Below, piece by piece: positions 14,600-42,236 of a stretch of 64,000 nucleotides of DNA. The translations under genes were made by a program, and so were the position numbers. Origin of the DNA: Bacteroidota bacterium (GTDB lineage Bacteria > Bacteroidota > Bacteroidia > Bacteroidales > F082). Location of the stretch: the NCBI GenBank assembly GCA_018816765.1, contig JAHIUX010000090.1:1-64000 (forward strand), given 5' to 3'. The notes below the pieces were generated by a model. It saw only the letters and a program-made list of their open reading frames with translations, made no database searches and had not been told where the DNA came from. The stretch's first letter is position 1. Every line of letters begins with the position of its first letter.

Positions 14600-14602
14600 G
14601 CC

Positions 14603-18226: not shown

Positions 18227-19993
18227 TTATGGCAGCACGATCGAAAAACAAGTTCCCTTGTTTACTTCACTGTTAACCAATAGCTGTCCGCCGTTTCGTT
18301 CAACAAACTCCTTGCAAAGTTTGAGGCCAAGGCCAGAGCTCGCCTCACCTTCGGTGCCTGGCCGGCCAATGGATTCATCAAACATAAACAGCTTGTCAAG
18401 CATCCCGGGAGGCATCCCAATTCCATTGTCACACACCCTGAAGACGATCTGACCTGCGTCTGACTGAAGATCAACAAAAACCAGACCTCCCTTTGGCGTG
18501 AACTTCAGTGCATTGGAAAGCAGGTTTCGGGCTATGGTAAACAGCATATTTTGATCGAAGCAGACTGAAAACCCTGCTGGTATCCGGTTTTCTGTCGTTA
18601 GCTCTTTTTCCTGTGCCATTTCACTCAGCAGCCGGAAGGCACGGTCAAAAACTTCTGCAAGTGCAACGTTCACTTTTATCACCTGCACTTCCTCTCTTTG
18701 CATTTTTGCCCATTCCAGCAAATTTTCGAGCAGGTTCTGCAGGGTTTTAGCCGATTGGTTCATGGTACTTGCGATCGATTTCATCTCTTCAGGCGTAACC
18801 TCGTAAGTGTCATCCATAAACATCTCGGTAAGCCCAATGAATGAACCGATTGGGCCCCGAAGGTCGTGGCCGATAATCGAAAAAAGCTTATCCTTTTCAG
18901 CGTTTAACAGCCGCAGTTTTTCTTCATTATGCCGCACCTTCTCCTGCAAGAGGTGCCTTTGGGTAATATCATGTATGATCAGCAAGTGCCCGACAACACC
19001 CTGTTTGTGGTCAAGAATTTCGGAAACTGAGGTGAGATAGCATTTTTCTTCCTGCCTTGAATGATCTATTACCTCAATATTATTTACCGTTGTTTCATCA
19101 AACAATGCAATCATCTGAGGAAAGTTCACCCAGACAGTATCGATGGATTCTCCAAAAGGCACATGCTCCCATCCAAACATTTTTAAGGCGATGGGGTTGC
19201 AATCGACGAGGCGGTGCTTTTTATCGAAAACAATCAACCCATCGCCCATGCTCTGAAAAATATGCTCGCGGGCAATCGGCATCAGGTCAAGCATGCGAAA
19301 GCGCAGTATGCTCACCGACATGGCCAGGCCGGATAATGCAAACGCAAATGGCGTTGGATCAAGGTTTTCAATGGGCATTAAACCCAGAAAATAAACTGTA
19401 AAAACGAGTGCCGGAATCAGCACGGCAAACAACAGGAAAAGCAGTTGTTTCCGAAATAATGAACGGTTATAAAAGATTTTACGAACCAACACAAACAGCG
19501 CATATATTATGATGCCGTATGCATAACACACATGAACATAATACCATGGGCCAAAATCAAGCACCAAGCGCGACATGTTTCCATCCGGTTGTACACCGAT
19601 TCCTGAGTAATAAAGGTGGTGATACTCATTGGTTAAAGAAAGTATCAAGGTAATTAATGGAATGATGAGCAGATACAATGAGCGCTTTTTGTCTGATACC
19701 TGATCAAGGGCTGCAAATTGTTGAATGACAAATAACATCAGTACTGAAACAAATGGGATTCCCAGATATTCAACCTTTAGCCAAAAAAGCATATCAGCCA
19801 TGTCAGTACTGGCCAGTTCCAGCCCATAGGCAGCTGACCAAATGGCAATGCTGAGCATCAATAAGGCAAAGTTTTTTCCGCGTGGAGCATACCTTGGTTT
19901 CAACGCTTCGATTACCAAAATCGTGGATAAGGTCGCAGGAAATATCAGCGACAGCGCCAATATGTTTGGCACAAGGCTATTCAATACATCCAT
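18227..19993 (-). CDS. Sensor histidine kinase with N-terminal 7TM domain and PAS
   Basis: A 588-residue membrane kinase. Seven hydrophobic helices span about residues 10-230 and resemble the HisKA_7TM input module. A PAS domain follows (FQSMGDGLIVFDKK, about 245-345), then a dimerisation/phosphoacceptor domain with FSIIGHDLRGPIGSF (His376), and an ATPase domain with NLLSNALKFT, DNGIGM and SSGLGL. There is no receiver domain, so phosphate must pass to a separate regulator, none of which is visible nearby. It is the last gene of the minus-strand signalling array, 125 nt after the preceding hybrid kinase, so it may have its own promoter. The HisKA core belongs to the same subclass as the 530- and 1119-residue kinases of the cluster. 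Confidence 0.93.
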   Translation of the reverse strand: MDVLNSLVPNILALSLIFPATLSTILVIEALKPRYAPRGKNFALLMLSIAIWSAAYGLELASTDMADMLFWLKVEYLGIPFVSVLMLFVIQQFAALDQVSDKKRSLYLLIIPLITLILSLTNEYHHLYYSGIGVQPDGNMSRLVLDFGPWYYVHVCYAYGIIIYALFVLVRKIFYNRSLFRKQLLFLLFAVLIPALVFTVYFLGLMPIENLDPTPFAFALSGLAMSVSILRFRMLDLMPIAREHIFQSMGDGLIVFDKKHRLVDCNPIALKMFGWEHVPFGESIDTVWVNFPQMIALFDETTVNNIEVIDHSRQEEKCYLTSVSEILDHKQGVVGHLLIIHDITQRHLLQEKVRHNEEKLRLLNAEKDKLFSIIGHDLRGPIGSFIGLTEMFMDDTYEVTPEEMKSIASTMNQSAKTLQNLLENLLEWAKMQREEVQVIKVNVALAEVFDRAFRLLSEMAQEKELTTENRIPAGFSVCFDQNMLFTIARNLLSNALKFTPKGGLVFVDLQSDAGQIVFRVCDNGIGMPPGMLDKLFMFDESIGRPGTEGEASSGLGLKLCKEFVERNGGQLLVNSEVNKGTCFSIVLP

Positions 19994-20118
19994 GAAGCGT
20001 GTCTAGTTGGTTTTTGTAAGCATAGTTCCGGCATCAACCAGGGTTAGGTTCATTTTTTTGCATTGGCGTTTACTGCATGCTGATCAAATTTTTGTCTATT
20101 TCCCTCCAGAGCTGACAA

Positions 20119-22221
20119 TTACTGTGTTGTCCAACCTAGCCATTTAATTGCACAATCGATCACTAACTTCGACTTGAAAGGTTTGGCGATATAATCATTG
20201 CAACCGGCATCGGAAGCCCTTTTTTCGTCGCCCGACATTCCAAATGCAGTCAATGCAATGATGGGCAAATCATCCCGTATAAATTTTATTTCACGGGTAG
20301 CCTGCAAACCATCCATCACTGGCATTTTAATGTCCATGAACACCAGTTGGATATCCTTTCTGTTGCGACAATGATACACAGCCTGCTCTCCGTTGATAGC
20401 ACGTATAACGGTGGCATTCAGTTTGCGTTTCAGAAGAACCTCCAACACCTGAAAGTTAGACTCTTCGTCTTCTGCCACCAGAATCACCGGGCTTATTGCG
20501 GGCAGTTCAGCAAAAGAAACAGCAGTTTCCTGAAGCAATAAAGGCTGCTTTTCGTCGAAGGGCATTGAAACATAAAATGTGGTTCCGCTGCCTTTTTCCG
20601 ATTCAAACCGAATGTTTCCGTTCAGCAAAACACAAATTTTCCTGCAAATGGCAAGTCCAAGCCCGCTGCCATCGAACTTGCGCATTTTGCTTGAGTCCTC
20701 CTGTATAAAAAATCCAAACACCTTATCCTGAATTGAGGGAGCAATACCGATACCGGTGTCACTTACAAAAAATTCGATTTTTCCGGATGTGATGTTATAA
20801 CCAAACAGGATCTTTCCTGTTTCGGTAAATTTTACAGCATTGTCGAGCAGGTGAACCAGCACTTTCTCAAGCAGGTTGTTGTCGGTGTGAATGCGTAAAC
20901 CATGATGCTCTGCCGGAAAATGCAGTTCAAACAACAGGTGTTTTTGCAAAGCCTCTTCCCTGAACTCGTCAACAAAAGTGGCAAGCAAGTTATCGAGTTC
21001 GATATCGGCCATTTCAACAGGCATATTGTCGGTGTTCAGCAACGAAATATCCATGTATTGCGTAATCGTGCGCAACAACCGCCTTGTGCTCTGGTTCATG
21101 ATCCAAATGAGCTCCTCCCTTCCTTCAGAAGGAATTACCGGATCAGAGAGCAAGGTTGACGCACCGAGAATGCCGTTCAGGGGTGTACGGACTTCATGAG
21201 AAATGTTATTGAGAAAATCGGATTTCAGCCGGTCGCTGGCCTTCACCAATTCCATGGCTTGCACAAGTTCATTTTTTTGCTTGACAAACTGTTCTATGAT
21301 GTTACCAATTCTTTCAAAATCGCGGCTGTTCTTTTTTAATTCAGGCATTTTCCGCATATCCTCTTGTTCGATGATTTCACTTACCATGCGCAGTGGGCGG
21401 CTTACAAGGCGCGATAATAAAAAAGTAATGATCAGTAGTATGCCGACTACACTGAATAAGTAGAGTATCAACATTTGTGTTGACAGCTTTTTGTATAAGG
21501 TCATAAAAGCCATCACCCTGTTGAACTTCACATAGCCCACTTCTTCATGGAGGTAATTATGGAAAGTATGCAATGCCGTAACTTCATCAGCCTGTTGATT
21601 GTGTTTCAATGAAGGCTTTCCGACGAAAACATTGATATCGCATCCGGTTATGGCCTCATAAGACTGCAACATTTCTTTGTCCCACCTTTCGGCCAGGAAG
21701 AAATAGCCCTGGGGCTCACTCAATTTTTTGGGGTCATTGGTTGGGTGTATGGTGGCTCCCTGAATAAAATACAAGACACTATCAATGGCAATAAAATAGC
21801 TGATTGCCCGGTCGCGGTGCAGGTCGTTCAGCATTCTCTCATTGAAGGATAACCTCGACAGGATGTTGTCGATTTCAATGAAATCACGATAGACCGGAAC
21901 CTTTTTGGCATTTAGCAGCCATACGCCGTGAAAATGGAAGGAAGCCAGAATACTGCTGAGGTTTTCCTTTCCCCATTGCGTGTCAGGATTCTGCGCATAT
22001 GCCACAATATCATCCCAATAGGTATAGTCGTATACAACCTGGTAAACCTTCGATTGCTGTGAACTGATCATGGCTTCCATGGATTGTATCAGCTGGGCCT
22101 GGTTATAATCAGTGATCAGGCGTTCCCGTTTCTGGTTTGACTTAAACGCAAAAACGCTCACAATAATCGCGATCAGCACTATTGCAAGGGCGAAAACCGA
22201 AATTTTACGTTGTGTTCCCAT
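20119..22221 (-). CDS. CHASE4-HAMP hybrid sensor histidine kinase
   Basis: A 700-residue inner-membrane hybrid kinase: TM1 (7-25), a periplasmic CHASE4-like sensor (about 45-230, with the YDYTYWDD signature), TM2 (about 247-270), HAMP (about 270-320), HisKA with FLNNISHEVRTPLNG (His342), HATPase (NAVKFT, DTGIGIAP, GSGLGLAI) and a C-terminal receiver (VAEDEESN, phosphoacceptor Asp630 in VFMDIKMPVMDG, TAFG, IAKPF). It starts one base after the stop of a putative porin gene and is likely translationally coupled to it. The core is strikingly similar to those of the 1223- and 1081-residue hybrids in the same cluster. The ligand is unknown. Confidence 0.93.
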   Translation of the reverse strand: MGTQRKISVFALAIVLIAIIVSVFAFKSNQKRERLITDYNQAQLIQSMEAMISSQQSKVYQVVYDYTYWDDIVAYAQNPDTQWGKENLSSILASFHFHGVWLLNAKKVPVYRDFIEIDNILSRLSFNERMLNDLHRDRAISYFIAIDSVLYFIQGATIHPTNDPKKLSEPQGYFFLAERWDKEMLQSYEAITGCDINVFVGKPSLKHNQQADEVTALHTFHNYLHEEVGYVKFNRVMAFMTLYKKLSTQMLILYLFSVVGILLIITFLLSRLVSRPLRMVSEIIEQEDMRKMPELKKNSRDFERIGNIIEQFVKQKNELVQAMELVKASDRLKSDFLNNISHEVRTPLNGILGASTLLSDPVIPSEGREELIWIMNQSTRRLLRTITQYMDISLLNTDNMPVEMADIELDNLLATFVDEFREEALQKHLLFELHFPAEHHGLRIHTDNNLLEKVLVHLLDNAVKFTETGKILFGYNITSGKIEFFVSDTGIGIAPSIQDKVFGFFIQEDSSKMRKFDGSGLGLAICRKICVLLNGNIRFESEKGSGTTFYVSMPFDEKQPLLLQETAVSFAELPAISPVILVAEDEESNFQVLEVLLKRKLNATVIRAINGEQAVYHCRNRKDIQLVFMDIKMPVMDGLQATREIKFIRDDLPIIALTAFGMSGDEKRASDAGCNDYIAKPFKSKLVIDCAIKWLGWTTQ

Positions 22222-22222
22222 A

Positions 22223-22942
22223 CTAATAGAGTCCTATAATAAGCACAAGGTGAGTCTGCCTGATCAAAGGCGAATATGTCAAGGAAAGTCTTAGCGGCAT
22301 TGTCAGCTCCTGGTTTATTGCATATTCCCTGTTCATGTTTATGCCCACATTGGTAAATCCTTTCCTGTCAGGATGATAATACCCTACCTGAGGAGTGTAT
22401 CCTGCCAACACTTCAACATTGGTTGCTCCGACAGCCGTCAGCCAGGCCAATTCAAAATAGGCTGAGTTATTTCTGTCGTTAAACAAATTAAGACCGGCAA
22501 GCAGCCTGAAAGGTATTTTTTCTGTTCCGGTGAATTCAATCACTCCTTCGATAACATGTGAAGACTGGTCTTTTTTGTAATTGAAATAATCGGCAATAAC
22601 GGTATCGGCATAATAGTAATAATCAAGCACCGTTAACTTAAAAGCGCTAAGTGTATAGGCAAGATAAAGGTCAACTTCTTTGCTGTCGTGAGCCTGAAAA
22701 GCAGCAGAGCCCCAGGCACCCACACTGAACTTATTTAAGGACATTTCTACGCCTGGCTGAATCGCAGGTCCATTGGACAATACCAAACCCCGCCACAAAT
22801 ACTGGGAGGTCAAATCAACGTTCATTGATAAATCTATTGAATTACTGCTTTCTACTTCCTGACCAACAGCACTACCTTTGTATAGCATAGGTACCAGAAA
22901 TAATGTCAGATGAACAACAAAGCCCAGGAATGGTTGTTTCAT
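22223..22942 (-). CDS. Putative outer-membrane porin (TorF/Gcw_chp-like) within a kinase operon
   Basis: A 239-residue protein with an N-terminal hydrophobic signal (about 5-27, cleavage near VGQE). The mature part opens with MNVDLTSQYLWRGLVLSN and continues with GPAIQPGVEMS, the start typical of TorF/Gcw_chp-like putative porins, followed by amphipathic strands up to the terminal aromatic ...LVLIIGLY. It is probably an outer-membrane barrel. It sits between two hybrid kinases, with 6 nt and 1 nt gaps, so production must be coupled to theirs. Family placement is by pattern only; it could also be an unclassified barrel. Confidence 0.65.
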   Translation of the reverse strand: MKQPFLGFVVHLTLFLVPMLYKGSAVGQEVESSNSIDLSMNVDLTSQYLWRGLVLSNGPAIQPGVEMSLNKFSVGAWGSAAFQAHDSKEVDLYLAYTLSAFKLTVLDYYYYADTVIADYFNYKKDQSSHVIEGVIEFTGTEKIPFRLLAGLNLFNDRNNSAYFELAWLTAVGATNVEVLAGYTPQVGYYHPDRKGFTNVGINMNREYAINQELTMPLRLSLTYSPLIRQTHLVLIIGLY

Positions 22943-22948
22943 TGGTAA

Positions 22949-25900
22949 TCAGGATTTTAATATGATAAACTTGTTGATCTTTCGCAGTACATCATTCAGT
23001 TTGAATGGTTTGGCAAGGTAGGCATCGCAGCCTGCATCAAGAATCAATTGTTCATCGCCATGGTTGCCATAGGCAGTCATTGCAATGACAGGGATATCAG
23101 GAAATAAGGATTTTATCAGCCGGGTTGCCTCAAAACCATCCATCAACGGCATCTTTATGTCCATAAATACCATTTTCAGTCCAGGATTTTCCTTACATTT
23201 TTCCACGGCATCATGGCCATCTCTGGCCCTGATAACCCTTGCGTTAATTTTGTTTTTTAACAACATTTCAATCACCTTGAAATTTGAATCTTCATCCTCA
23301 GCAACCAAAACCAGTGGGTTTTCAAGCTCACTAACGAATTGATCTCCACCATCCGACTCTTTTTCCCTGGCCTGTTTTGTTTGCGAAACAGGTAAAGTTA
23401 GAGTAAATTTTGAGCCTTTCTCCTTTTCTGACTCAAAAAATATATTTCCATTGAGTAACTGACATATTTTGTTGCATATCGACAATCCAAGTCCGTTGCC
23501 ATCGAACCTTCTGATGTGACTTTGGTCTTCCTGCATAAACACTTCAAATATTTTCGCGTGTGAGTCCTTGTCAATTCCAATACCGGTGTCTGATACCTCC
23601 ATTTGAAACAGTCCGTTTTGCAGGCTATATGAGAAAGTGATTTTTCCCCTATCAGTAAATTTTACGGCATTTTCGAGTAAATGTTCGAGCATTTTCACCA
23701 ACAGTCCGTGGTCGGTGCTTAAAACAAGTTTCGTGCATTCAGCAGGTATATGGACCTCAAATTCAAGGCCTTTCAAGTCACAGGCTTTAGCGGCTTCATC
23801 AATAACATATTGCATACCTCCTTCGCTGACGTATTGGTTGGTGATAATCAAGGGCATTGTTCCGGAGTTTAGCATCGAAATATCCATATACGCTGTAATG
23901 GTCCGGATTAGGCGCGCAGTGCTGCGTTCGATGATCGCCTCTACTTCTCGCTTGTTTTCGTTTGGTAATGTCGGGTCGGTAATCAGGTTGGTGGCGCCAA
24001 TGATGCCGTTCAATGGTGTCCGTAATTCATGTGAGATATTGCTCAAAAAGGCTGTTTTCAGTTTATCGCTTTCTTCGGCCATATCTTTTGCGCGCACCAA
24101 AGCTTCGTTCATGCTCTTGATTTTGTTATTCGACTCAAGCAATTCGAGGTTCAGGTCCATCAATTCTTCATTCTGAATCTGCAGCGCTTCTTCACTGTTT
24201 TTCAGTGCAATGTCAGCCAGTTTTCTTTCAGTGATGTCGTGAATGATCCCCATGACAATGGTATCCGGGAATGCAGCAAACGACACCGTACTGATTTCAA
24301 TATCCCTGATCTGCAGCGTTTTAGTTCTGATTTGCGTTTCAAAGCGTGGCGACGGCACCTCCCCTTTTACCAGGGCCTCAGCCCTTGCCCTGTCAACCTC
24401 AACACTGTATGAAGTATGGAGTCTTTCCTGATCAAAGTCCTCAGCCATGAGTTCCCCGGGCAGGAAGCCGCTCAGCTCAATGAAGGATTTATTCACATAA
24501 GTGTAGCGTTCATTTTCTTTAAGATAGATGGCATCAAAGGCGTTTTCGATCAGGTTCCTGAACTTTTCTTCGCTCAACCTGAGGGCTTCTTTAATCCTGT
24601 AGCGTTCAATCCAGCGTCCGAGGATGAGGGCGATCTGGTTAAGCAGTTGGATTTCTTCTTCCTGAATGAATGTTGTTGCTTTTATCACACGTATGAGCCC
24701 TACACTTTCACCCATGGCAATGATATCGACATGATACGCCTCCTTGTCAGGTTGTTGTTTTTGAATGCTCCGGCCTGAGTACAGCAGCAGCTCAACCTTC
24801 TGACTCTCATGTATTCCGCTCGATATAATGGCTGGCAGCTGGTCAATCATTAAGTCAATATCCGTTGCTACCTGCAATGCTTCATTCACCTGCTTAAGAC
24901 AGGTGAGGTCGTTGATTCTTTCACTTAGTTTAGCGGTTCGCTGCCACACAATCTGCTCAAGTACCAGCCACCTGTTTTTCAGCAACCACATGATGAATGT
25001 GATCATGATCGTGAGCACAAAACCAATAATACCCACGGTTACCGTGTTCAAAATTCTGAATTGTTCGAGGTTCGTGGTCTTTGAGTGTGCCATTAATGCA
25101 AAACTGCGCCCCCACATGAAAAACGGCAGAATCTTCTTGTAAGGGAATTTCCCGAGATGCTCGAGAAATGGTCCTTTTTCAATATGTATCAGATGTGACT
25201 GTGGGTAAGCAGCAATCAGTTCTTTGCTTGAGCCGGGCATCAGGTCAACAATTCCCAGTGTGGTGAGTTCACCAAGCCACTGCAATCGGCCAAGGGAAAT
25301 GTTAATGGTGTTTTGGATATTTATAAAGGCAACAATGAATCCCATGAATCCTTCCTGGTCATCGAGCGTTCTGATTTTTTTATGCTTCGTCTTGAATACA
25401 GGATAAAACACCAAAACCATAGGGGTTGGTGAGCCATTCACCATCAGGTAAACTAATCCTGTGCAGTTTGTCATTCCTTCTTTAAAGGCCGTCTCGATGT
25501 CTTTGTCAACTAAGTTAAACATCTCAGGCCGGAAATTTTTTGCTAACCCCGGATCGACATTGGATTCAAGGTATTTGAAAACGAGTGTTTGCTTACCCAG
25601 AGGTAACTCAACGGGTGAAGCCAATTCGCTTATCTGATTTTTCTCAGTCTTACTGGCTTGCTCTTCAGGCTTTAGCCAGGCTAGCGCCACAATCGAGGAA
25701 TTCCTGAGCACTTCCTCAGTATACAGTTTGAATTCCGTTTTATCAACCTCATTGCTGCTTATAAAGAAGTTTGATGTTGTGCGCAAGTTTTCGCGTATTT
25801 TATTGAACTCAAGCCGGATGGTCGCAGCCTGCTGCGCTGCCTGTAGGTCGAAATACTTCTGCCGTTCAACTCCATTGAGGTTTCTAACGATCAGGATGGC

Positions 25901-26620
25901 AACTAACGTAATTATGACACCCAGCAGACTTACTGTGATAGTTTCAAAATGCCGGTATTTTAGTGCTTTGTCAGGTGATAACCTGTCGCGGAGTGACACG
26001 CCCAGAAAAAAGCCCAGCACCAATACCAGGGCTATGGCTACAAACCAGACCGAGGCTTTCTTTTGTGAATTGAGGGCTATGATGTATTTCCCGGCCGGAA
26101 AGTCCATGCCAATTATATATTGTACTTTTCCTGTACGGGGATCATTTACCGGAAAAAATGCGGACATCATTTGCTTGCCTTCAACATTTACGGGGCCAAT
26201 CGTTACGGGGCTCTTCAAATGAACGAGTTTTTCTGTTTCACTTTCCGGATACAGAAAAGGTTTACCGGGCAAGGTTTCTTCCATTATCTTACTCGACATC
26301 CCATATACAAGCTTTCCATCCTTTGGCCGCAGGCTATACACCCTCGCATCAGGGAAATAATTTACAAATGCGATAAGCTGGCGGTTTATCCGCTGATAAA
26401 CCGGGTGAAACTGATCGGATGAGGTAAAGCTCAGGTTTGAGTGCAGGTCATGATCAATGGCATCAACAAAATCAATCAGTTCATCATGCATTTCTTGCCT
26501 GAGCCGAAGATCAAGGCTCTTCACCTTATAGTTGGAAACAATGACTGCAGCCCAAACAAACACTACCGCAACCAGTGCTGCCGGAAGGTATCTGAAAACC
26601 AGGTTTGTTTTCCTTTTCAT
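22949..26620 (-). CDS. Hybrid sensor histidine kinase with two periplasmic sensor modules, GAF-like and PAS domains
   Basis: A 1223-residue hybrid kinase. TM1 (11-30) and TM2 (190-209) bracket a Cache-like periplasmic domain; TM3 (228-247) and TM4 (527-547) bracket a second, CHASE-like domain (about 270-515, with VLRNSSIVALAWLKP). The cytoplasmic part has a GAF-like region (about 570-675), PAS (687-800, NLIENAFDAIYLKEN), a coiled coil (800-855), HisKA (FLSNISHELRTPLNG, His864), HATPase (NAVKFTD, DTGIGI, GNGLGL) and a receiver (VAEDEDSN, VFMDIKMPLMDG, LAKPF). The PAS resembles one in the 1119-residue kinase next door. It is first in a tight group with the porin and the CHASE4 kinase. Ligands are unknown. 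Confidence 0.92.
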   Translation of the reverse strand: MKRKTNLVFRYLPAALVAVVFVWAAVIVSNYKVKSLDLRLRQEMHDELIDFVDAIDHDLHSNLSFTSSDQFHPVYQRINRQLIAFVNYFPDARVYSLRPKDGKLVYGMSSKIMEETLPGKPFLYPESETEKLVHLKSPVTIGPVNVEGKQMMSAFFPVNDPRTGKVQYIIGMDFPAGKYIIALNSQKKASVWFVAIALVLVLGFFLGVSLRDRLSPDKALKYRHFETITVSLLGVIITLVAILIVRNLNGVERQKYFDLQAAQQAATIRLEFNKIRENLRTTSNFFISSNEVDKTEFKLYTEEVLRNSSIVALAWLKPEEQASKTEKNQISELASPVELPLGKQTLVFKYLESNVDPGLAKNFRPEMFNLVDKDIETAFKEGMTNCTGLVYLMVNGSPTPMVLVFYPVFKTKHKKIRTLDDQEGFMGFIVAFINIQNTINISLGRLQWLGELTTLGIVDLMPGSSKELIAAYPQSHLIHIEKGPFLEHLGKFPYKKILPFFMWGRSFALMAHSKTTNLEQFRILNTVTVGIIGFVLTIMITFIMWLLKNRWLVLEQIVWQRTAKLSERINDLTCLKQVNEALQVATDIDLMIDQLPAIISSGIHESQKVELLLYSGRSIQKQQPDKEAYHVDIIAMGESVGLIRVIKATTFIQEEEIQLLNQIALILGRWIERYRIKEALRLSEEKFRNLIENAFDAIYLKENERYTYVNKSFIELSGFLPGELMAEDFDQERLHTSYSVEVDRARAEALVKGEVPSPRFETQIRTKTLQIRDIEISTVSFAAFPDTIVMGIIHDITERKLADIALKNSEEALQIQNEELMDLNLELLESNNKIKSMNEALVRAKDMAEESDKLKTAFLSNISHELRTPLNGIIGATNLITDPTLPNENKREVEAIIERSTARLIRTITAYMDISMLNSGTMPLIITNQYVSEGGMQYVIDEAAKACDLKGLEFEVHIPAECTKLVLSTDHGLLVKMLEHLLENAVKFTDRGKITFSYSLQNGLFQMEVSDTGIGIDKDSHAKIFEVFMQEDQSHIRRFDGNGLGLSICNKICQLLNGNIFFESEKEKGSKFTLTLPVSQTKQAREKESDGGDQFVSELENPLVLVAEDEDSNFKVIEMLLKNKINARVIRARDGHDAVEKCKENPGLKMVFMDIKMPLMDGFEATRLIKSLFPDIPVIAMTAYGNHGDEQLILDAGCDAYLAKPFKLNDVLRKINKFIILKS

Positions 26621-26673
26621 CTACTGAAATTAACTTCAAATCGATTCATGATTAGTCCTAATTAACCGCATTA

Positions 26674-28266: not shown

Positions 28267-28356
28267 TGTAATTTTAAATGGCGCTTAAGTGATTGCATTC
28301 TGTCAAAGTGTTGCCAAACACACACTGACTTGGTATTTATGTCTTTATCACACTTT

Positions 28357-31716: not shown

Positions 31717-31729
31717 GTCTGGTCCATAT

Positions 31730-34700
31730 TTATTGCTGAGCCTGTTTCATTTCAATGCCATACATTTCAATTTTCGCCTTGAGTGTCTTAAGTGCGACAG
31801 GTTTTGCGATATAATCGTCGCATCCGGCAGCAAGCGCCCGGTGCTCATCGCCGCTCATGGCATAAGCGGTTATTGCAACAACTTTCAAATCAGGCATTTT
31901 CTCCTTGATTCGCCGCGTTGCTTCAAGACCGTCCATCACCGGCATCTTGATATCCATTAACACCAGGCCAATGTCTTGATTTGAAGTGCACATCTCAACA
32001 GCTTCCATTCCATTCGATGCCCTGATAACAACTGCGTTTGTCGTTTGCCTGATCAGCAGATCGAGCACATAGAAGTTCGAATCATCGTCTTCAGCAACAA
32101 GGATTACATTTTTTCTATGCGCGACCCTCGCCTTTGGTTCGGTCTCGTTTTGCCCATGCATAAATTCGATATTAATTTTTTCAGCGGGGAGTTCGACATA
32201 AAACTTTGATCCCTTATTCTTTACAGATTCAACCCTGGCATTTCCTCCAAGCAGTTCAGCTACTCCTTTCACGATGGCAAGTCCGAGACCGCTGCCTTCA
32301 AACCGGCGCGAACTACTCGAATCCTCCTGTGCAAAGGCTGTGAAAATATTTTCCACAGCGCTTTCATGAATTCCGATTCCAGAGTCTTCGACGAAAATTC
32401 TAATGGCACTATTTTGAATAGTAAAACCAATTTCAACAAATCCTGATTTCGTAAACTTGATGGCATTGTCGATGAGGTGTATCAAAGCCTTGCCCAGAAG
32501 TTCCTCATCTGATTTAAGCTTGAAGTTATGCAGGTGTTTTGGTATCGCCTTACGGAATTCAATTTGTTTGCTTTCGGCTATGGATTGAAATTTTTCTTTC
32601 AAATTTTCTATCAAACCATCGAGTGAAAATTCGTTCTCATGCAACTCCATATTTCCTGAGGTAATCAGCGAAATATCCATATAATCGGTAATCGTTCGCA
32701 ATAACCTGTCGGTACTCAGGTTGATGATCTCGGTCATTTCACCGATTTCTTCCCGACTAATATCAGGATCGTTGAGCAGGGTGGTGGCACCGAGGATCCC
32801 ATTTAATGGGGTGCGTACCTCATGTGAAATATTGTTCAGAAATGCTGTTTTCAGTCTGTCATTGGCTTCTGCTATGGCCTTTGCCTTTTGCAGGGTTTCC
32901 TGTGCAACAAGCTTATCGGTTACATTGTACACCATGACCATACGGTGACTTCTGCCCGTTTGTGATGGCACAGCATGGGAAACAATTTCCACATCAATGA
33001 TGCTGCCATCTTTTTTCTTATGTCGCCAGTTTTTCGATTCTTGCACTTCCTCCTGATGTAGTTTCACATCAGCTAACAACATGGGAATATCCTCTTCCGG
33101 CCTGATGTCGAGCAATGTCATCTGCAGGAATTCTTCCTTGCTGTAACCATATTCACGGGTTGCGGCCTCATTCACTTCAATAAAACCGAAGCTTTCCACA
33201 TCATAGATCCACATGGGCAGCGGGTTTCCACTGAAAATATTGCGATATAATTTTTCATTTTCGATCAGGTCGTGCTTCAACATTTTCCACTCGGTGATAT
33301 CCTCCTTTATCGCAATGAAATGCGTCATTTCACCATCTTCATTGATCACCGGCGAAATGGAAGCTGATTCCCAGTAAAGCTCGCCATTTTTCTTTTTGTC
33401 GTGAAACTCACCGTGCCAGGTATCGCCGGAAGAGATCGTTTTATACAGGTTCTGGTAATCAATTTCAGAAGTTTCGCCCGACTTGAGGATTCTTGGATTC
33501 CGTCCAATCAACTCACCCGGAAAGTAGCCCGTTGTTTCGACCACCTTTGGGTTTACATAAACGATATTTCCATCAAGATCAGTTATTACAATAGAAACAG
33601 GTGACTGTTCCACAGCCCTTGTCAGTTTGGCTAATTCCTGTTCATATTGTTTGCGCTCGGTAATATCAAGCAAGGTTGAAAGCAGGTATTTCTTTCCTGA
33701 CATTTCATACACCTCAATCGACATCATGATGATGCGCACTTCCCTGTTGCGCATAATCAAGGGCAATTCGGCCTGCTTAATATAACCATGTTTTTGCAGT
33801 TCATCAATCAGTTTTTCCCTTAGGTCAGTCGTTATAATTCCCATTGAAATCACACTGTTTCCAATGAGTTGGTCGCGGGTGTAACCAGTGAGCCGGCAAA
33901 ATGCATTGTTCACATCGACCATCTCACCACTTTCGAAGTAAGTCAGTGAAATGGCAACCGGACTTGAATAAAATGATTTACTGAACCGTTCTTCGAGTTC
34001 ACGCCTTTGTGCTTCAAAGCGTGTTTGCTCCGTGATATCCTCGACTATCCCAACACCACCACTAACGCGGCAATTTTCATCAAAAATGGGTGAAAACTGC
34101 AGCCTGACCTCAGTTTGCTTATCAGCCGTATAAGATTTGTAAGGTCCTTGATAGATTGACTTTTCTCCCCTGAGGCATTGATCAAGTGCCGAGGTAATAT
34201 TCTTATCAGGCAATTTGGTCATATCAAGTCCAACAAGTTTTTCATGCGAGGAACCAATGATTGAAACAAATTGGTTGTTGCAGGCTTTAATAATTCCATC
34301 TTCTCCAAAGCTCAGTACGCCAACAGGCGAATTCTCGAACACAAGCCGAAACCGCTCTTCACTGTTTTTGAGAATTTCCTGAGTGTGCATCTTCTCCTTC
34401 ATCTCCTGTTGCAGGTCTTCCATCAGGTTGAGGGCGGCTTGCTTGCTTTTTTCGAGGTTTGAAACTGCAATCTGAAGTTCTGATTCAGTTTTCTTCCTTA
34501 CCTCAAGCTCCTTCTCAAGCTGGGCAGTACGTTCATTGACAATTTCCTCCAGCCTTTCTTTTTCGTTAAGCTTTATAATATCGGCCTCTCTGATACGCAG
34601 CATGGCTGTAATCTGTGCCTTAAACTCCGTTTCATCAACCGGTTTGCTTAAAAATGCATCAGCACCACATTCAAGCGCTCGGGTGCGTGACTCCACATCG

Positions 34701-34975
34701 GTTTTTGCTGCAGTGATCATGACCACAAGTACATGCCTCAATGCTTTATTTTGCTTTATAGCAGAACATATTTCATATCCATCCATTTCCGGCATCACGA
34801 TATCCAGCAGCACCACATCAGGCATTTCCTTTGCGCAAATTTCGAGTCCTCTCTTACCGGTTGGTGAGCTAAAGAATCTGGCCTCTGGAAAAAACTCATT
34901 CATTAAGGCTTTTAATACCAATATGTTATCGGGAGAATCGTCGATAGCAAGAAATTTTATTTGACTACGTTCCAT
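31730..34975 (-). CDS. REC-PAS(4)-histidine kinase-REC hybrid
   Basis: A 1081-residue soluble hybrid. An N-terminal receiver (FLAIDDSPDN, Asp58 in LLDIVMPEMDG, LSKPVD) occupies about 5-125, then a coiled coil (125-195), PAS domains near 205-320, 330-440, 450-565 and 575-690, HisKA (FLNNISHEVRTPLNG, His718), HATPase (NAIKFTK, DSGIGI, GSGLGL) and a C-terminal receiver (VAEDDDSN, LMDIKMPVMDG, IAKPV). A receiver at both ends suggests it can accept phosphate from another kinase and relay it on. Its start overlaps the end of the upstream GAF hybrid by 11 nt, which implies translational coupling. Confidence 0.93.
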   Translation of the reverse strand: MERSQIKFLAIDDSPDNILVLKALMNEFFPEARFFSSPTGKRGLEICAKEMPDVVLLDIVMPEMDGYEICSAIKQNKALRHVLVVMITAAKTDVESRTRALECGADAFLSKPVDETEFKAQITAMLRIREADIIKLNEKERLEEIVNERTAQLEKELEVRKKTESELQIAVSNLEKSKQAALNLMEDLQQEMKEKMHTQEILKNSEERFRLVFENSPVGVLSFGEDGIIKACNNQFVSIIGSSHEKLVGLDMTKLPDKNITSALDQCLRGEKSIYQGPYKSYTADKQTEVRLQFSPIFDENCRVSGGVGIVEDITEQTRFEAQRRELEERFSKSFYSSPVAISLTYFESGEMVDVNNAFCRLTGYTRDQLIGNSVISMGIITTDLREKLIDELQKHGYIKQAELPLIMRNREVRIIMMSIEVYEMSGKKYLLSTLLDITERKQYEQELAKLTRAVEQSPVSIVITDLDGNIVYVNPKVVETTGYFPGELIGRNPRILKSGETSEIDYQNLYKTISSGDTWHGEFHDKKKNGELYWESASISPVINEDGEMTHFIAIKEDITEWKMLKHDLIENEKLYRNIFSGNPLPMWIYDVESFGFIEVNEAATREYGYSKEEFLQMTLLDIRPEEDIPMLLADVKLHQEEVQESKNWRHKKKDGSIIDVEIVSHAVPSQTGRSHRMVMVYNVTDKLVAQETLQKAKAIAEANDRLKTAFLNNISHEVRTPLNGILGATTLLNDPDISREEIGEMTEIINLSTDRLLRTITDYMDISLITSGNMELHENEFSLDGLIENLKEKFQSIAESKQIEFRKAIPKHLHNFKLKSDEELLGKALIHLIDNAIKFTKSGFVEIGFTIQNSAIRIFVEDSGIGIHESAVENIFTAFAQEDSSSSRRFEGSGLGLAIVKGVAELLGGNARVESVKNKGSKFYVELPAEKINIEFMHGQNETEPKARVAHRKNVILVAEDDDSNFYVLDLLIRQTTNAVVIRASNGMEAVEMCTSNQDIGLVLMDIKMPVMDGLEATRRIKEKMPDLKVVAITAYAMSGDEHRALAAGCDDYIAKPVALKTLKAKIEMYGIEMKQAQQ

Positions 34976-37310
34976 ACAATAATTGGTTGATGGTTGATTC
35001 TAATAATTCGTTTTCAACTGGTTTTGGTATATACGCATCAAAGCCAGCCTGAAGCAAGGCTTCTTTGTCGCCTTTCATGGCCCTTGCTGTAACGGCAACT
35101 ACAGGAGTGTGTCTGATTTGTTCTGTTTCCCTGATGCCCTTCAACACCTCAAAACCATCTAGCCCGGGTAAGGTGATGTCAAGCAGGATCAGAGCTGGTT
35201 TGAAATTCCTGGCTTTCTCAAGTCCTGAGATGCCATCATCGGCACTAAGCAAAAAGTACTTATCTCCGAGCAAAGCGATAATCGTCAATGCGTTGTCGGG
35301 ATTATCCTCAATAAGTAAAATTGTTGGATCACCAGCTTTCATGGCTTTTTGTGCTTTGCCAACAGCTTTGGTCGCCAGTTGCTTATTCATAAATACACCT
35401 TTAACCAGGTCCAGCAATTCGTTTCGGTTTAATGCGCCTTTCTGAACAAGCTGGCTGATATTATTTCCCTTCAAAAGGCTTAGCTCTTCACTTGTTACGT
35501 GCTTTGCTGTAAGCACAATTACCGGAAATATGGTTTCTATCTCAGACCTGATCTCATAAAGTAATTCGAAACCATCCATTCCGGGCATCATCAGGTCCAG
35601 GATCATGGCATCGGGCAATTGTTGCCTAACCATTTCTAAAGCCGAAATACCATTTCTGGCAGTGATCACATTGAATCCTTCAGGTTCGAGCACATCTTTA
35701 AGCTGAATCAGCTGTGATTCCATATCTTCTACAATGAGGATTGTTTTTCCCCTTGCATCAACTTCAGCGTTTTGTATTCCGCCGGCCAGTTGCTTAGGTA
35801 ACTCACTTATTGTCACATGCGTATCGGTCAGCTGTAATTCTGAGGGCAGAAACAATGTAAATACAGAACCTTTGCCAGGCTCAGTTTGCACCTCGATCCG
35901 GCCTTCGAGCAATTCGCAGTATTTTTTGGCAATGGAGAGTCCCAGGCCAGAACCACCATACATACGCGAGGTTTTCTCATCGGCTTGTCTGAACTCATCA
36001 AAGATCACATCCAGCATCTCGGGGAGAATACCAATCCCTGTGTCTCTAATCGCGATAACAAATTGGCTATCGATGAATGACAATTCCGCTTCAACACTCC
36101 CCGTTTCGGTGAATTTCACCGCATTGGCCAGCAGGTTTTGCAGGATATGCCTGACTTTGGCATAATCAGATGTTAGCATTGGGAGGTTTTCTCCAGGCAA
36201 ATGGGTCAGGGTGATGCCTTTTTCATCAGCCGTTGGCTTAAGCACCTGTATGAGATCAGCAACAAGTTCATTCAGTGAGAAATGATTGAAAATTAAGTCT
36301 GCTTTACCTGATTCGATGCGCGACAGATCCAATATTTCATTGATCAATGTTAACAAAGATTTGCCGTTCTTAGCGATGACGCCGAGGTAATTATATTCGT
36401 CCGGATCGATTTTGCCTTTTAGTTTACGGCTCAACACACCTGCAAGGGCAATGACTGAATTAAGGGGTGTACGCAGTTCATGGCTCATATTCGACAAGAA
36501 TGCACTTTTAAGCCGGTTCGTTTCATCCAGCTGTTTCTTTTGAATTTCAAGTTCAATGTTGTATTCCTTCAATTCATCCGCCTGCAGGCTCAGTTCGCCC
36601 GATTGCTGTTCCAGTTCACGGTTTTGTCCGTCGAGCTGATCAACCATTTCCACTATTCTGCCGTAGGCTGCAACAGCGCTCAGTCTGGCTGCAACTACAT
36701 GGTGGATTTCGTTAAGTAACTTAATGTGATGTTCTTCAACAGGTTTTGCAAATGCCAGTGCAATGGCTCCAATAGGCTGCTCAAGTTCAAAAAGTGGTAT
36801 TGTGACAATTGAAGCCGGAATAATTGATCCTGCAAATGTCTTATATAAAAAAGCCGACTCGCCCGAAGGTTCAAGTACACAGATTTTTTTCAAAGTGAAG
36901 GCCCTCCCAAATTCCCCTTCGGCCGAATCAAGGGAAAATGATTTCATGCTTTCGGTATCCATTCCAACCGACTGGTAGGGAGTTAAAGCCGAGGTTCCTT
37001 CCTTTACAAGGTACAAGGCAGCCAACTGGGCTTTCGTTTGTGCAATCAGATCAGAAAGCAAAACCCTTGCGAGGCTATCCATCTCATTTACAAGTGAAAG
37101 GTCAGCTGAAATTAAAGTTGAGTATTCTTTTAAGGTAATTTCTTTCTCAATGGTTTCGGCCAGGGCATTGAATGCAAGCGCCAGCTGACCGATTTCATCG
37201 GAATCAGTATTTTGGCTTCGTATAGCGTAATTTCCCTCACTGAACCGCTCGGAGTCACCAATCAGGTCATAGATTGGTTTTCTAATGCTTCGGGTCAAAA
37301 AAATGCACAA
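34965..37310 (-). pseudogene. HAMP-GAF-histidine kinase-REC-REC: 3' part of a frameshifted hybrid kinase
   Basis: A 781-codon open frame whose only start near the 5' end is a TTG directly after an in-frame TAA. It opens inside a HAMP domain (FLTRSIRKPIYDLIGD, DEIGQLALAFN), followed by GAF (about 75-215), a coiled coil, HisKA (FLSNMSHELRTPLNS, His277), HATPase (NAVKFTE, DTGIGI, GSGLGL) and two receivers (VEDMESQ...LDLMMPGMDG; IEDNPDN...LDITLPGLDG). The missing membrane sensor lies in the preceding frame, which overlaps by 29 nt. Dropping one T from a seven-T run (37296-37302) fuses the two perfectly. It is either a real frameshift mutation, an assembly error or a site of slippage; all downstream domains look intact. 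Confidence 0.85.
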
Positions 37311-37926
37311 TTATAGCAACCAGGAGAGTCAGCACACAAACCATAATCATAAGATAATACCTGATTTGCATCCTGCTATTGCTTGCATTGGTGTAAAACG
37401 TTGATGCCATATTGTTAGCAAAGTCAAGTAATAAGTCCAAATTACTCAACATGGCTTCGGTGGTGGTGCTGTTTCTTAATTTTAGTAAGTCACTTCTACT
37501 GGCCGAAACATATCCAGCCTTTATGTTGGCTTCAAGATGCCGCTCAGCCAGATCGAGCCATTTATGATAGGCAATGTAAGCGCTGTCCACATCATTTTTT
37601 GATCCCAGAAACTGTTCGTAAATGATCTTGAAGTTGTCCTCAATTGCAATCCGGTTTCTATCATAAACTATTTTGTCAGCTTTTAACTCAGCTTCTCCTT
37701 CAGTGATCATCATATCCCTTACCAATCGCTGCATTTCAATAACATTGGCTTTAATTGTCGTAGCAGCCTTGGTAACCCTAAATGGATGCTCATACATATT
37801 GCTGGTCTGGTCCCACATCCGGTCAACAAACATGATTGAAAAAAAACCCAGGACAAAAACTAGAAATAGCAGCATGCCTGAGATGATGATTAAACGTGTT
37901 CGGATATTGATGTTTGTTAATTTCAT
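37282..37926 (-). pseudogene. 4HB-MCP-like membrane sensor: 5' part of the frameshifted hybrid kinase
   Basis: A 214-residue frame with TM1 (about 11-32), a periplasmic four-helix-bundle domain like that of chemoreceptors (PFRVTKAATTIKANVIEMQRL region, about 40-185), and TM2 (about 190-209, YYLMIMVCVLTLLVAIIVHFF). It then stops after DPKH, exactly where a HAMP domain should begin. The HAMP start is present one frame over. Joined, the two frames give a sensor-TM-HAMP-GAF-kinase-REC-REC protein of roughly 985 residues. The gene starts 45 nt after the cheR stop. Confidence 0.85.
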
Positions 37927-37971
37927 GGTTTTGTAATGCTGGTTCTGTTAGGTGAGTTTTGCATTAAGCGA

Positions 37972-38799
37972 TTAATTTGTTTTCACAAAGATGGGATGAT
38001 AGGCATTGATTTGTCTCAACCCCCTTGTTCCTGAGGTGATTCCGATCTCAGCTTCACTGCAGATAAAGTAACCTCCTTTGACCAATGATTTTAATAGTTT
38101 CTTAATTATATATTGCCTTAAATCAGCCTTGTAATAAATCAGCACATTACTGCACATGATCAGGTCAAACTCACCAAAAAGGCTGTTGGGTGGTGCCTGT
38201 AAGTTTTCATTAAGCAAATCAAACTGTGAAAAATTGATTATTTTACGCAAGTGACCTGAGATTTGCCAATAATCACCTGACCGCCTAAAGTACTGATCCA
38301 GAAATGAAACACGCAGATTCTTCAATTGAGTTATGGGATATTTGCCTAGCAAAGCCTTGGCGATATTGTTTTCCTGAATGTCAGTGGCAAATATCCGGGT
38401 AACCTTTTTATTCGGTTGGAGCTTTAAATACTGGTCAACAAGCATGGCCAGCGAATAGGCTTCCTGTCCCCTGGCACAGCCAGCTGACCAAATCCTTAGC
38501 TCGTGTTTACTATCAGTTCTATTGTAAATGATGGGCAATATGACTGATTCGACCATGGCGAATATGAGCAGGTTGCGAAAAAACTCACTGTGCGAATTCA
38601 GTAGTTTTTGGATAAGTGATTCTATAAATTTTTCATCTTTCAGCAAATGCTCCACATACGCACTTTCCGACTCACAAGCACACAATTGCATTTGCTGGTT
38701 AAGCACCTTTTGGACGAAGTCTTCGTCGAAACGATGCAGGAGCAGTTTTTTTCTGTCTGCTAAAAGACCGGCAATGATGTCAAGTGCGTTGTTTTCCAT
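37972..38799 (-). CDS. CheR-type protein-glutamate methyltransferase
   Basis: A 275-residue SAM-dependent methyltransferase of the CheR family, which in chemotaxis methylates glutamates of receptors. Seen: the N-terminal helical domain with HSEFFRN (equivalent to TxFFR), the SAM-binding IWSAGCARGQEAYSLAM, FATDIQENNIAKALLGKYP, FSQFDLL and FDLIMCSNVLIYY. The start at the ATG at 38799 (MENNAL) fits better than a frame reaching into the upstream gene. No CheB, CheA, CheW or complete chemoreceptor is encoded in the window; the nearest candidate target is the 4HB-type sensor kinase just downstream. A role in modifying that kinase is inference. Confidence 0.88.
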   Translation of the reverse strand: MENNALDIIAGLLADRKKLLLHRFDEDFVQKVLNQQMQLCACESESAYVEHLLKDEKFIESLIQKLLNSHSEFFRNLLIFAMVESVILPIIYNRTDSKHELRIWSAGCARGQEAYSLAMLVDQYLKLQPNKKVTRIFATDIQENNIAKALLGKYPITQLKNLRVSFLDQYFRRSGDYWQISGHLRKIINFSQFDLLNENLQAPPNSLFGEFDLIMCSNVLIYYKADLRQYIIKKLLKSLVKGGYFICSEAEIGITSGTRGLRQINAYHPIFVKTN

Positions 38800-38831
38800 G
38801 ATATTTATTCCATATAGCTTAATCCTCAACC

Positions 38832-41663
38832 TCAATTATCAACTATCCTGTAGCGTTCGTTCTGGCCCATCATTTTTAACAATTCATTAATCTCAGATTT
38901 CAATGCGATCATTTTCAACTCCCTGCCCACAGTCAGGTTATTGAATCTTTCCAGTTCTTCCATCTTGCGCTTCAGTTCTGCTTCAGCCAATTTTGTTTGT
39001 GTAATGTTGCGGTGTGTTCCTACAATGCGTGTTGGGTTGCCATGCTCATCCCAGTCAACAGCACTTCCCTGGGTGTCAATCCATACAATTTCACCTTGTA
39101 GGGTAGTTTGCCGGTATTCGAAGCGGAAATTGGACCCTTTCGTTGAAAGAAACTGTGCGAAATACGCTTGAATTGCCCTACTGTCATCAGGATGAATGTT
39201 TTGCAGCCACTGAATATTTTGTGCCTGGTATTCGGGCAGTTCATAGCCAAGAATATGTGCGTACTGCTCGTTGACCAACACAACACCTGATTTGATATCG
39301 AGGTCAAACAGCCCAAGCTGAGAGGCCTCCATGGCCAGCCGAAGCCTGAGTTCGCTCTCTTTCAAGGCATCGGCTGCCTCCTTGTCTTTGGTAATATCGT
39401 GGCCATATATAGCAACACTGATTACCTCGTTTTCCCTGAACACCGGATAAATATAATTCATCATCCACCTGCCTGACCGGCAATCCTCGAACTGAACCGG
39501 CTTTTTTCGGTTGATGGCCTCTTTCATCCTGGCCCTCCGGTTTGGCACAACCTCCGGAGGTAAATAATCGAACACATCCTTTCCAATGGCTTCATCGAGT
39601 GTGGTATTCAGCCTTTTTGCAAATACATTGTTTGCGTCGAGTAATTTTCCCGTTGTATCCAGCATAAGCACCGATTCCTGTGAAGCGTTGAGAATGGCCC
39701 TGAGCTTTGCTTCGCTGTCGATGAGTTCCTTTTCTGCAATTAAGCGATCTGTTACATCCTGGTCTGATCCACGATAACCCACCAATTGCCCTTTTTCATC
39801 CAGAATTGGAGCCGCGTTGGTGGTTACCCAGATTTTTTCACCGCCTTTTTTTACGATTTGGTTGACGAAATTCGTGAAATATCGCTGATAAAGGAAGTCA
39901 TTGAAAATTTCTTCACAATACTCCTCTTTTAATTCGGGTGGAAACAAATCAAAGAAATATTTTTTACCAACCAGTTCCTCAGGTGCATAGCCGTATACTT
40001 CCGTTGCAATCGGACTAACAAAGGTATACAGTCCCTCTTTGTCAATTTCCCAAACGACCGCCTGAATCTGCTCGATCACCTGCCTGAAACGTGCTTCGTT
40101 CTTTTTCAGCGCTTTCTCAAGTTCATTCCGGTCAGTGATATCTCTCGTAACACCAATGATTCCGGTTGCTTCCAACTTTTCATTTCGCAGAAACCTCACC
40201 GATGACTCAACGTAAATCAATGAGCCGTTTTTATGATATTCTTCAAATTCAACATGTGCAACACGGTCAGGATCTGCTTCTCCGGTTTGCTCCATGGCCA
40301 GTTGCTCAGCGAGAATACCTTTTATCAGTTTCACCGATTCCGGGGGCATAACCTGGAACAGATGCTGGTTCATGCTCTCTTCAACACTGTATCCGTTAAG
40401 TCTTTCGATGGCTGGACTGATATAGGTGTAATAAAGATTCATGTCAAGGGTAAACAGCACATCAGTACTTTTTTCGGCCATGATGCGGTACTTCTCTTCA
40501 CTAAGCCTAAGTTCATTTTCAATCCGCTTTTTCTCCGTAATGTCAGTCACGATTGTTGCAAACTGACCTGACTGTGGACTATACGCCATCACGTCAAAAT
40601 ACTTGTCAAACTCGACCGAATAATTTTCTAAATGCATTGGTTTGCCTGACAAAGCCACTTTACCATAGTTCTCGATCCAATATTTTTCGGTTCGGGGCAA
40701 CACCTCAAGCACGGTTTTTCCGATACAGTCCTTCCGTTGCAGGCCGGTAATTTGCTCAAAGCTGTTGTTCATGTCCAAAAAGCGATAATCAACCACCTCA
40801 CCTTGTTTGTTCTGAATGATTTCGTGTAGACACAAACCTTGTAACATGCCAGATATCAACTTTTTATATTTCATTTCGCTGTTTGCAAGCACCTGTATTG
40901 CATCCTTTTTTTCAGAAATATCGCTGATAAAACACATAAAACGATCTCCCGGAAGCTTTACACCCTTAAAAGCCCACCACCTCAATTGCTTGTCTTTGCG
41001 CCTGATTTGCATCTCAACAAACACCTCGCCTGTTTCGGTAAGTATGTTAAAATGCTGCTTTCCAATATCTTTAGATCCGGATGGAAGCAATAAATCATAA
41101 TGTTGATTCAGCAATTCATTGGTTTCATACCCACTCATCAAAACGGCGGCATCATTTGCTTCTAAGAAAACTCCCTGTTCATCCAGAATAATTATACCTT
41201 CCGGTGCATGATTGATGTAGGACCGGAATTTTGATTCGCTTCGCCTGAGTTCTTCGATGGCATTTGCTTTTTCTTTGGCAACCACATTTTTAGCGATGCT
41301 CTCACGCACTGCAAATGGCAATCGTTTCATATTTTCTTTTAAAATATAGTCGTCAGCACCCGAACGGATACAGTTAACCGCAATTTCTTCGTTACGCGAT
41401 CCGGTCGTAATAATAACAGGCAGTAAGGGATCAAATTTCTTTGCAATCTGAAGGGCTGCCAGCCCATTGAATGTGGGCATAAAGTAGTCGGCAATCACCA
41501 CATTGGGGCGAAAATCGATGAGGCAAGTCCGAAACGAGGCTTCATCTTCAACAATTATTGCTTCAACATGAAGTCCTTCAGCCAATAAAATTTTGACAGC
41601 CAATTCGTAATCGACTTTAGTATCCTCAACAAAAACAAGGCGTAGTTTTTCCATTTTTGTCAT
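38832..41663 (-). CDS. REC-(PAS)6 protein without a recognised output domain
   Basis: A 943-residue soluble protein. The N-terminal receiver (VFVEDTKVDYE, Asp in VVIADYFMPTFNG, YILKEN) covers about 5-125. Six PAS domains follow, starting near 147 (INHAPEGIIILDE), 267, 392 (MAEKSTDVLFTLD), 520 (IEQIQAVVWEIDK), 648 and 772 (AMEASQLGLFDLD), each linked by DITE/DVTD-type ends. The protein then ends with a helix, LTVGRELKMIALKSEINELL, that in other multi-PAS proteins precedes or replaces an output domain. There is no HisKA, HATPase, GGDEF or HTH. It is first in the signalling array, 33 nt before cheR, and may act as a phosphorylation-dependent sensory scaffold. Confidence 0.88.
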   Translation of the reverse strand: MTKMEKLRLVFVEDTKVDYELAVKILLAEGLHVEAIIVEDEASFRTCLIDFRPNVVIADYFMPTFNGLAALQIAKKFDPLLPVIITTGSRNEEIAVNCIRSGADDYILKENMKRLPFAVRESIAKNVVAKEKANAIEELRRSESKFRSYINHAPEGIIILDEQGVFLEANDAAVLMSGYETNELLNQHYDLLLPSGSKDIGKQHFNILTETGEVFVEMQIRRKDKQLRWWAFKGVKLPGDRFMCFISDISEKKDAIQVLANSEMKYKKLISGMLQGLCLHEIIQNKQGEVVDYRFLDMNNSFEQITGLQRKDCIGKTVLEVLPRTEKYWIENYGKVALSGKPMHLENYSVEFDKYFDVMAYSPQSGQFATIVTDITEKKRIENELRLSEEKYRIMAEKSTDVLFTLDMNLYYTYISPAIERLNGYSVEESMNQHLFQVMPPESVKLIKGILAEQLAMEQTGEADPDRVAHVEFEEYHKNGSLIYVESSVRFLRNEKLEATGIIGVTRDITDRNELEKALKKNEARFRQVIEQIQAVVWEIDKEGLYTFVSPIATEVYGYAPEELVGKKYFFDLFPPELKEEYCEEIFNDFLYQRYFTNFVNQIVKKGGEKIWVTTNAAPILDEKGQLVGYRGSDQDVTDRLIAEKELIDSEAKLRAILNASQESVLMLDTTGKLLDANNVFAKRLNTTLDEAIGKDVFDYLPPEVVPNRRARMKEAINRKKPVQFEDCRSGRWMMNYIYPVFRENEVISVAIYGHDITKDKEAADALKESELRLRLAMEASQLGLFDLDIKSGVVLVNEQYAHILGYELPEYQAQNIQWLQNIHPDDSRAIQAYFAQFLSTKGSNFRFEYRQTTLQGEIVWIDTQGSAVDWDEHGNPTRIVGTHRNITQTKLAEAELKRKMEELERFNNLTVGRELKMIALKSEINELLKMMGQNERYRIVDN

Positions 41664-42236
41664 AATTTGGTTAGATCAGTAAGAATCCCTGGCAGCAACG
41701 CAAACTTTGCAACTGTATAAGCTGAGAGATAAGAATAATAATGTGAAAAACTTCCGGAATTTAACACAAGGCACCTATTGGGTATCGAGCCCAAAAATAC
41801 ACCTGAAACACCGGTTATATTCTTGATTTCTTGCATGAATGAACCCTCAATTAAAACCAATGCAGGTCAGTTCATCTTGCAGACCGGCAATGTCAAATTT
41901 TGTGTGCTAATGTAATTCAATTCACTAACATAAGCAAAAGTAATCACAGATCAATGGATATACTCAAATTTTACTGAAACCCGGTTACATTTTAACGGGC
42001 AGTTCACTTTCACAATGATTGCAACTATGCTAACTCAAGGCAAGCAAGCAGGTGTTCTTTTATAAATTTTCAGGAGCCCAAACCCGCATGTATCCAACTG
42101 AACGATGAAGGCTAAATCAACAAAAGGAAATGTGCATTTTATTGGTTCATTAATGAAATAAAGTATATATCACAGCAATTAACAGGTTATGAATAAGATA
42201 ACGCACCTGACAATTTGGGTAATGAGCACGAAATTC
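41664..42236. other. 573-nt non-coding stretch upstream of the signalling array
   Basis: An AT-rich gap between the LysM glucosaminidase gene and the REC-PAS gene, both on the minus strand. No credible coding frame, tRNA, repeat array or strong terminator was seen. It is the longest gap in the window and the natural place for the control region of the signalling array. Confidence 0.6.
41935..41968 (-). promoter_or_regulatory. Candidate promoter of the signalling array
   Basis: On the minus strand TTTG (41965-41968) is followed after 22 nt by TACTTTTG (41935-41942), close to the Bacteroidota promoter pattern though the spacer is one base long. It would leave a leader of roughly 260 nt before the REC-PAS start codon. 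Confidence 0.35.

Follow-up and report, generated by a model that had tools for sequence, protein, structure and literature searches.

HPts are the usual acceptors of phosphate from the receivers of hybrid histidine kinases. In the GacS-type network of Pseudomonas, related hybrid kinases with different inputs are thought to converge on one relay and one regulator (PMC8175716, PMC5992135), and related hybrid kinases stay within one network (PMC8175716). In the Che3 system of Rhodospirillum centenum a CheR is found near hybrid kinases, and a hybrid kinase can receive phosphate on its receiver from a different kinase; Che3 does not control motility (PMC3868531). A survey has placed the Bacteroidetes among the phyla in which HPt domains are not more often fused than alone (PMC4558063).

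We analyzed a window of 64,000 nucleotides from a Bacteroidota genome assembly (3.57 Mb, 91 contigs), in which an initial annotation, made from the sequence, had marked an array of kinase genes at positions 18227-41663 as the best candidate for an undescribed system. The block is real and conserved and represents a variation on a known type of system. No title or abstract describing this cluster was found in the literature searched.

Gene and Domain Content of the Cluster

The block consists of 11 open reading frames, all on the minus strand as first annotated, or ten genes if a split kinase is counted once (Table 1). The genes are separated by gaps of 1-126 nt or overlap slightly. Its upstream neighbor is a LysM glucosaminidase gene across a 574-nt gap; downstream the block meets a convergent gene for a protein of the PNP/UDP phosphorylase family. 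Past the downstream end, two tandem sodium:alanine symporter genes are located on the plus strand (13121-16219 of the window). A match to a Bacteroidota-type promoter was seen upstream of the block (41935-41968), but such matches were at chance level (3 found vs 2.9 expected), as were those of a generic promoter scan.

Table 1. Features of the kinase cluster (window positions).
Position	Strand	Feature	Basis
38832..41663	-	REC-PAS protein, 943 aa: N-terminal receiver, about six PAS, no kinase core, C-terminal VGRE tail	Pfam; tail alignment
37972..38835	-	CheR methyltransferase	Pfam CheR, 139 bits; orthologues in relatives
37282..37926	-	4HB sensor half of split kinase	Pfam 4HB_MCP_1; out of frame with next ORF
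37297..37303	-	T7 tract, probable frameshift site, in 29-nt overlap of the halves	Sequence; G001 orthologue a single 1007-aa ORF
34965..37310	-	HAMP-GAF-HisKA-HATPase-REC-REC, kinase half of split gene	Pfam
31730..34975	-	REC-PAS-HisKA-HATPase-REC hybrid kinase, type B core	Pfam; tree
28357..31716	-	Multi-PAS histidine kinase without receiver, type A core	Pfam; tree
26674..28266	-	Two-PAS histidine kinase without receiver, type A core	Pfam; tree
22949..26620	-	CHASE-PAS-HisKA-HATPase-REC hybrid kinase, type B core	Pfam (CHASE marginal); tree
22223..22942	-	Gcw_chp/TorF-type outer-membrane beta-barrel	Pfam; NCBIfam TIGR02001 below cutoff; predicted barrel
20119..22221	-	CHASE4-HisKA-HATPase-REC hybrid kinase, type B core	Pfam; tree
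18227..19993	-	7TM-PAS histidine kinase without receiver, type A core	Pfam HisKA_7TM, 211 bits; tree

Pfam searches yielded seven pairs of HisKA and HATPase domains and about 20 PAS domains, in agreement with the initial annotation, as well as one CheR, one Gcw_chp, and 4HB_MCP, HAMP, GAF, HisKA_7TM and CHASE4 domains. The receivers number seven rather than the six counted before: two each in the REC-PAS kinase and the HAMP-GAF kinase, and one each in the CHASE4 kinase, the CHASE kinase and the REC-PAS protein. The mixed inputs that had been read from the sequence were matched for 7TM, CHASE4, 4HB, GAF and PAS and marginally for CHASE (25.4 bits vs a cutoff of 25.0), while the block gave no Pfam match to Cache. 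A search of the block proteins with Pfam profiles for a hidden HPt or output domain returned none, as had been claimed: the HPt, HTH, LytTR, GGDEF, EAL and PP2C families gave no match at E<=0.01, and no DNA-binding or second-messenger domain was found within the block. Reading the alignments by eye, the DHp histidines, the receiver aspartates and lysines and the ATP-binding boxes look canonical.

The two halves of the split kinase lie in different frames, and the sequence in which they overlap contains a run of seven T. The counterpart in G001, a genome of the same genus, is one intact reading frame. The broken kinase is thus probably due to a frameshift at the T7 tract in this assembly, either genuine or an assembly error.

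Conservation of the Cluster in Related Genomes

The gene order proved to be conserved. One contig of G001 carries, in order, the LysM gene, the REC-PAS protein, CheR, the intact HAMP-GAF kinase, the REC-PAS-HK-REC kinase and a PAS kinase, and a second contig carries the CHASE kinase, Gcw, the CHASE4 kinase and the 7TM kinase. Protein identities between the two genomes are 38-63%. G014, from another genus, keeps the upstream half with the REC-PAS protein, CheR, the HAMP-GAF kinase, a type B kinase and a type A kinase; further relatives of the cluster proteins are absent from the next 17 kb. In G006 the Gcw barrel and the CHASE4 kinase are found on one contig and CheR and the HAMP-GAF kinase on another. 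In G273, which belongs to a different family of the same phylum, the order is a receiver, a REC-VGRE protein, CheR, a HAMP-GAF-HK-REC-REC kinase and a REC-GAF-PAS-HK-REC kinase. The public sequences most related to the REC-PAS kinase come from Bacteroidales and other Bacteroidota MAGs. As the upstream module (REC-PAS protein, CheR and 4HB-HAMP-GAF-HK-REC-REC kinase) is more widespread than the rest, it is probably also older.

The frameshifted kinase could suggest that kinase genes accumulated here by chance or that the block is in decay. About 60 kinases are dispersed over the 3.57 Mb genome and the order is kept in the congener, which makes chance accumulation unlikely. The reading frames are also open there, the same kinase is intact, and the catalytic residues look intact. 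Chance clustering is largely ruled out by this synteny, and we consider accumulation by chance or decay highly improbable.

Two Sets of Paralogous Kinases

A FastTree phylogeny was built from kinase cores of the source genome and its relatives, covering most, not all, of the kinases of the source genome. The cores of the CHASE4, CHASE and REC-PAS kinases (type B) form a clade with their counterparts in G001, G006 and G014 (support 0.999), and among the kinases covered no other one of the source genome falls inside it. The three receiver-less cores (type A) group with a support of 0.881, or 0.988 when a kinase from a cluster on contig C2 is added, so that monophyly of type A is moderately supported. 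The C2 cluster (L170, C2:19501-39500) is one of two further multi-kinase clusters in the source genome, the other being L169 (C84:30001-50000); it encodes type A-like kinases along with one more VGRE-tailed PAS protein.

Judging from the cores, the three hybrid and the three receiver-less kinases arose by local duplication, and each set shares its core while differing in its sensors. Together with the distribution in relatives, the sequences describe the block as a pair of modules that grew as kinase cores were duplicated, rather than as one ancient unit.

Identity between the type B kinases is 0.67-0.86 in the first DHp helix vs 0.45-0.50 across the full core, a value for the helix that is inflated in part by general conservation of the H-box. 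Motifs common to all three are NGI(L/I)GA(T/S).L(L/I).DP, which follows the H-box, and RL(L/I)RTIT.YMDIS, located in the second DHp helix; RTIT.YMDIS was absent from every other kinase core in the alignment. Their C-terminal receivers are closely similar and share motifs as well. These DHp regions set the partner specificity of histidine kinases, and the shared motifs therefore make it likely that the type B kinases have a common partner.

Alternatively, the block could consist of independent two-component pathways that came to lie side by side by tandem duplication and use separate unlinked partners, the clustering reflecting common descent only. The type A, type B and HAMP-GAF cores do represent three distinct lineages with different DHp helices, the modules are found apart in G006 and G014, and the source genome has multi-kinase clusters elsewhere. 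However, the partner-contact helices of type B are near-identical across genera, which is not expected with separate partners, and the succession of a type B by a type A gene occurs twice in the window and again in G014 and at a public locus (L005). We regard independent pathways as possible but rather unlikely.

The CheR Module and the Gcw Barrel

The TTG start listed for CheR overlaps the upstream gene by 4 nt, and an alternative internal ATG is found about 12 codons in. The seven closest CheRs, including that of the window, all adjoin a HAMP-GAF-HK-REC-REC kinase. In the source genome and the relatives sharing the module there is no CheB near the CheR of this module, CheB sites being on other contigs or far away. 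The block gave no Pfam match to CheA, CheW or an MCP signaling domain and is in this respect not a Che system. A Glu/Gln-rich coiled coil directly precedes HisKA in all nine kinases inspected. It is a possible target of methylation, through which CheR may adjust the 4HB kinase.

PAS or REC proteins in corresponding positions carry the same VGRE tail as the REC-PAS protein. Another family of the phylum has fused kinases in which the VGRE motif lies between the PAS or other N-terminal region and HisKA (L218 985-3117, L230 1-2217). This position suggests that the REC-PAS protein is a detached sensor working in trans; it also rules out the tail as a mark specific to the cluster. A more speculative reading, possible but rather unlikely, is that a CheB-less CheR adapts a non-Che histidine kinase through methylation of the coiled coil while the VGRE-tailed REC-PAS protein docks as a detachable sensor, forming a hybrid-kinase adaptation module kept in several Bacteroidota families. 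CheR, the REC-PAS-VGRE protein and the 4HB hybrid kinase recur together in the absence of CheB; this trio hints at possible methylation control of an ordinary histidine kinase and is the part of the block most worth testing.

The barrel protein passed the Gcw_chp cutoff of Pfam (46.0 vs 24) and missed the curated cutoff of TIGR02001 (TorF porin; 40.4 bits vs 47.15). An outer-membrane barrel fold was predicted from a structural model and PDB matches, with modest TM-scores of 0.3-0.5 by query length. Gcw paralogues in the source genome, G001 and G006 adjoin an ammonium transporter and a kinase/response-regulator pair (L135 411-5024, L244 4625-9319, L245 2986-7621), the regulator being confirmed as LuxR-type by Pfam in the source genome. 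In G024 the Gcw gene adjoins PII and Amt (L139 446-3173), and in G006 a periplasmic binding protein adjoins the cluster-type Gcw. A nitrogen-related input to the Gcw-CHASE4 unit is at most a plausible lead.

Candidate HPt Partners Outside the Cluster

An HPt profile run across the whole genome found three sites, none of them on the contig of the block. Only two are non-CheA HPts, both stand-alone and both with the conserved histidine, so that the genome combines hybrid receivers with stand-alone HPts, as a phosphorelay with an unlinked HPt would require. On contig C38 the HPt is preceded by a single receiver together with a FeoB gene. The one on contig C91 directly follows an NtrC-type REC-Sigma54_activat-Fis response regulator (Fis match just below cutoff), which is 84-88% identical across genera. 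Both neighborhoods recur in G001, G002, G006 and G014, except that the single receiver beside the C38-type HPt is absent in G006 and G014. The short contig C73 (L132, 4159 bases) carries two MCP-like genes as well as a CheA-like HPt fragment and a hydrogenase-like one, and is possibly an assembly contaminant.

The HPt genes are conserved in every relative that keeps the CheR module. Within family f1, the C38-type HPt is present in 7/7 genomes with the CheR orthologue, and CheR in 0/7 genomes without that HPt (Fisher p ~0.016, calculated by hand and ignoring kinship). Exclusive partnership with the block is ruled out, as G002, of the same genus, has both HPts and neither the Gcw barrel nor a close CheR orthologue; the other hybrid kinases of the genome must use the same two HPts.

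The earlier proposal that the signal leaves the cluster through an unlinked HPt or regulator thus has candidates to name, although the three receiver-less kinases do not need such an exit. As to an undescribed system, the clustered mixed-input kinases and their conserved order stand, but stand-alone HPts are ordinary in Bacteroidota and the missing local output alone is therefore no evidence.

We propose that local duplication made the block a hybrid-kinase network with multiple inputs that feeds unlinked HPts, a reading to which we give about an even chance. In such a network the older module, with its VGRE-tailed REC-PAS protein, CheR and 4HB-HAMP-GAF-HK-REC-REC kinase, would have been joined to an expanded set of type B and type A kinases. 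Because the type B kinases share a near-identical DHp contact helix and closely similar C-terminal receivers, we infer that phosphate most likely goes from all three to the same stand-alone HPt, encoded away from the block, which would in turn hand it to an equally unlinked regulator. For this HPt the one on C91, behind the NtrC-type sigma-54 response regulator, would be the best candidate. The type A kinases would probably either act as modulators of type B or phosphorylate a receiver within the cluster; the REC at the N terminus of the REC-PAS kinase would be one example.

With seven receivers and zero HPts in the block, the receivers could instead be phosphate sinks or allosteric switches, the output arising from protein-protein contacts of the REC-PAS protein or single-domain receivers, without an HPt or transcription factor. 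A receiver acting as a regulator is known in Che3 (PMC3868531), and the VGRE tail both ends separate PAS proteins and occurs inside fused kinases. We consider this improbable in view of the conservation of the HPt genes in all relatives with the CheR module and the usual role of HPts as acceptors for hybrid receivers.

Comparison With Known Systems

The cluster barrel is of the same family as the TorF/Gcw_chp outer-membrane proteins (TIGR02001, PF09694). Unlike its paralogues, it has no adjoining transporter and sits between two hybrid kinases. The C84 cluster of the source genome (L169) resembles the block in having CheR beside 4HB/HAMP/GAF-like multi-receiver hybrid kinases with a Glu-rich coiled coil, but there CheB is adjacent, which is absent from the window cluster. 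The block is similar to Che3 in the proximity of CheR to hybrid kinases and, for the transfer proposed here, in kinase-to-hybrid-receiver phosphorylation (PMC3868531); it differs in having none of the CheA, CheW, MCP and CheB found in Che3.

The block also resembles the GacS-type network. As the exclusive clade and the common DHp and receiver motifs indicate, the type B hybrid kinases are of one descent and share transmitter/receiver specificity. In contrast to the Pseudomonas network (PMC8175716, PMC5992135), the kinases lie in one block together with receiver-less partners, CheR and a barrel, and the downstream partner is a candidate, for which two HPts are now named. The block thereby offers a natural case in which sensory input appears to have been widened by copying kinase cores in place and swapping their sensors, with partner specificity seemingly kept.
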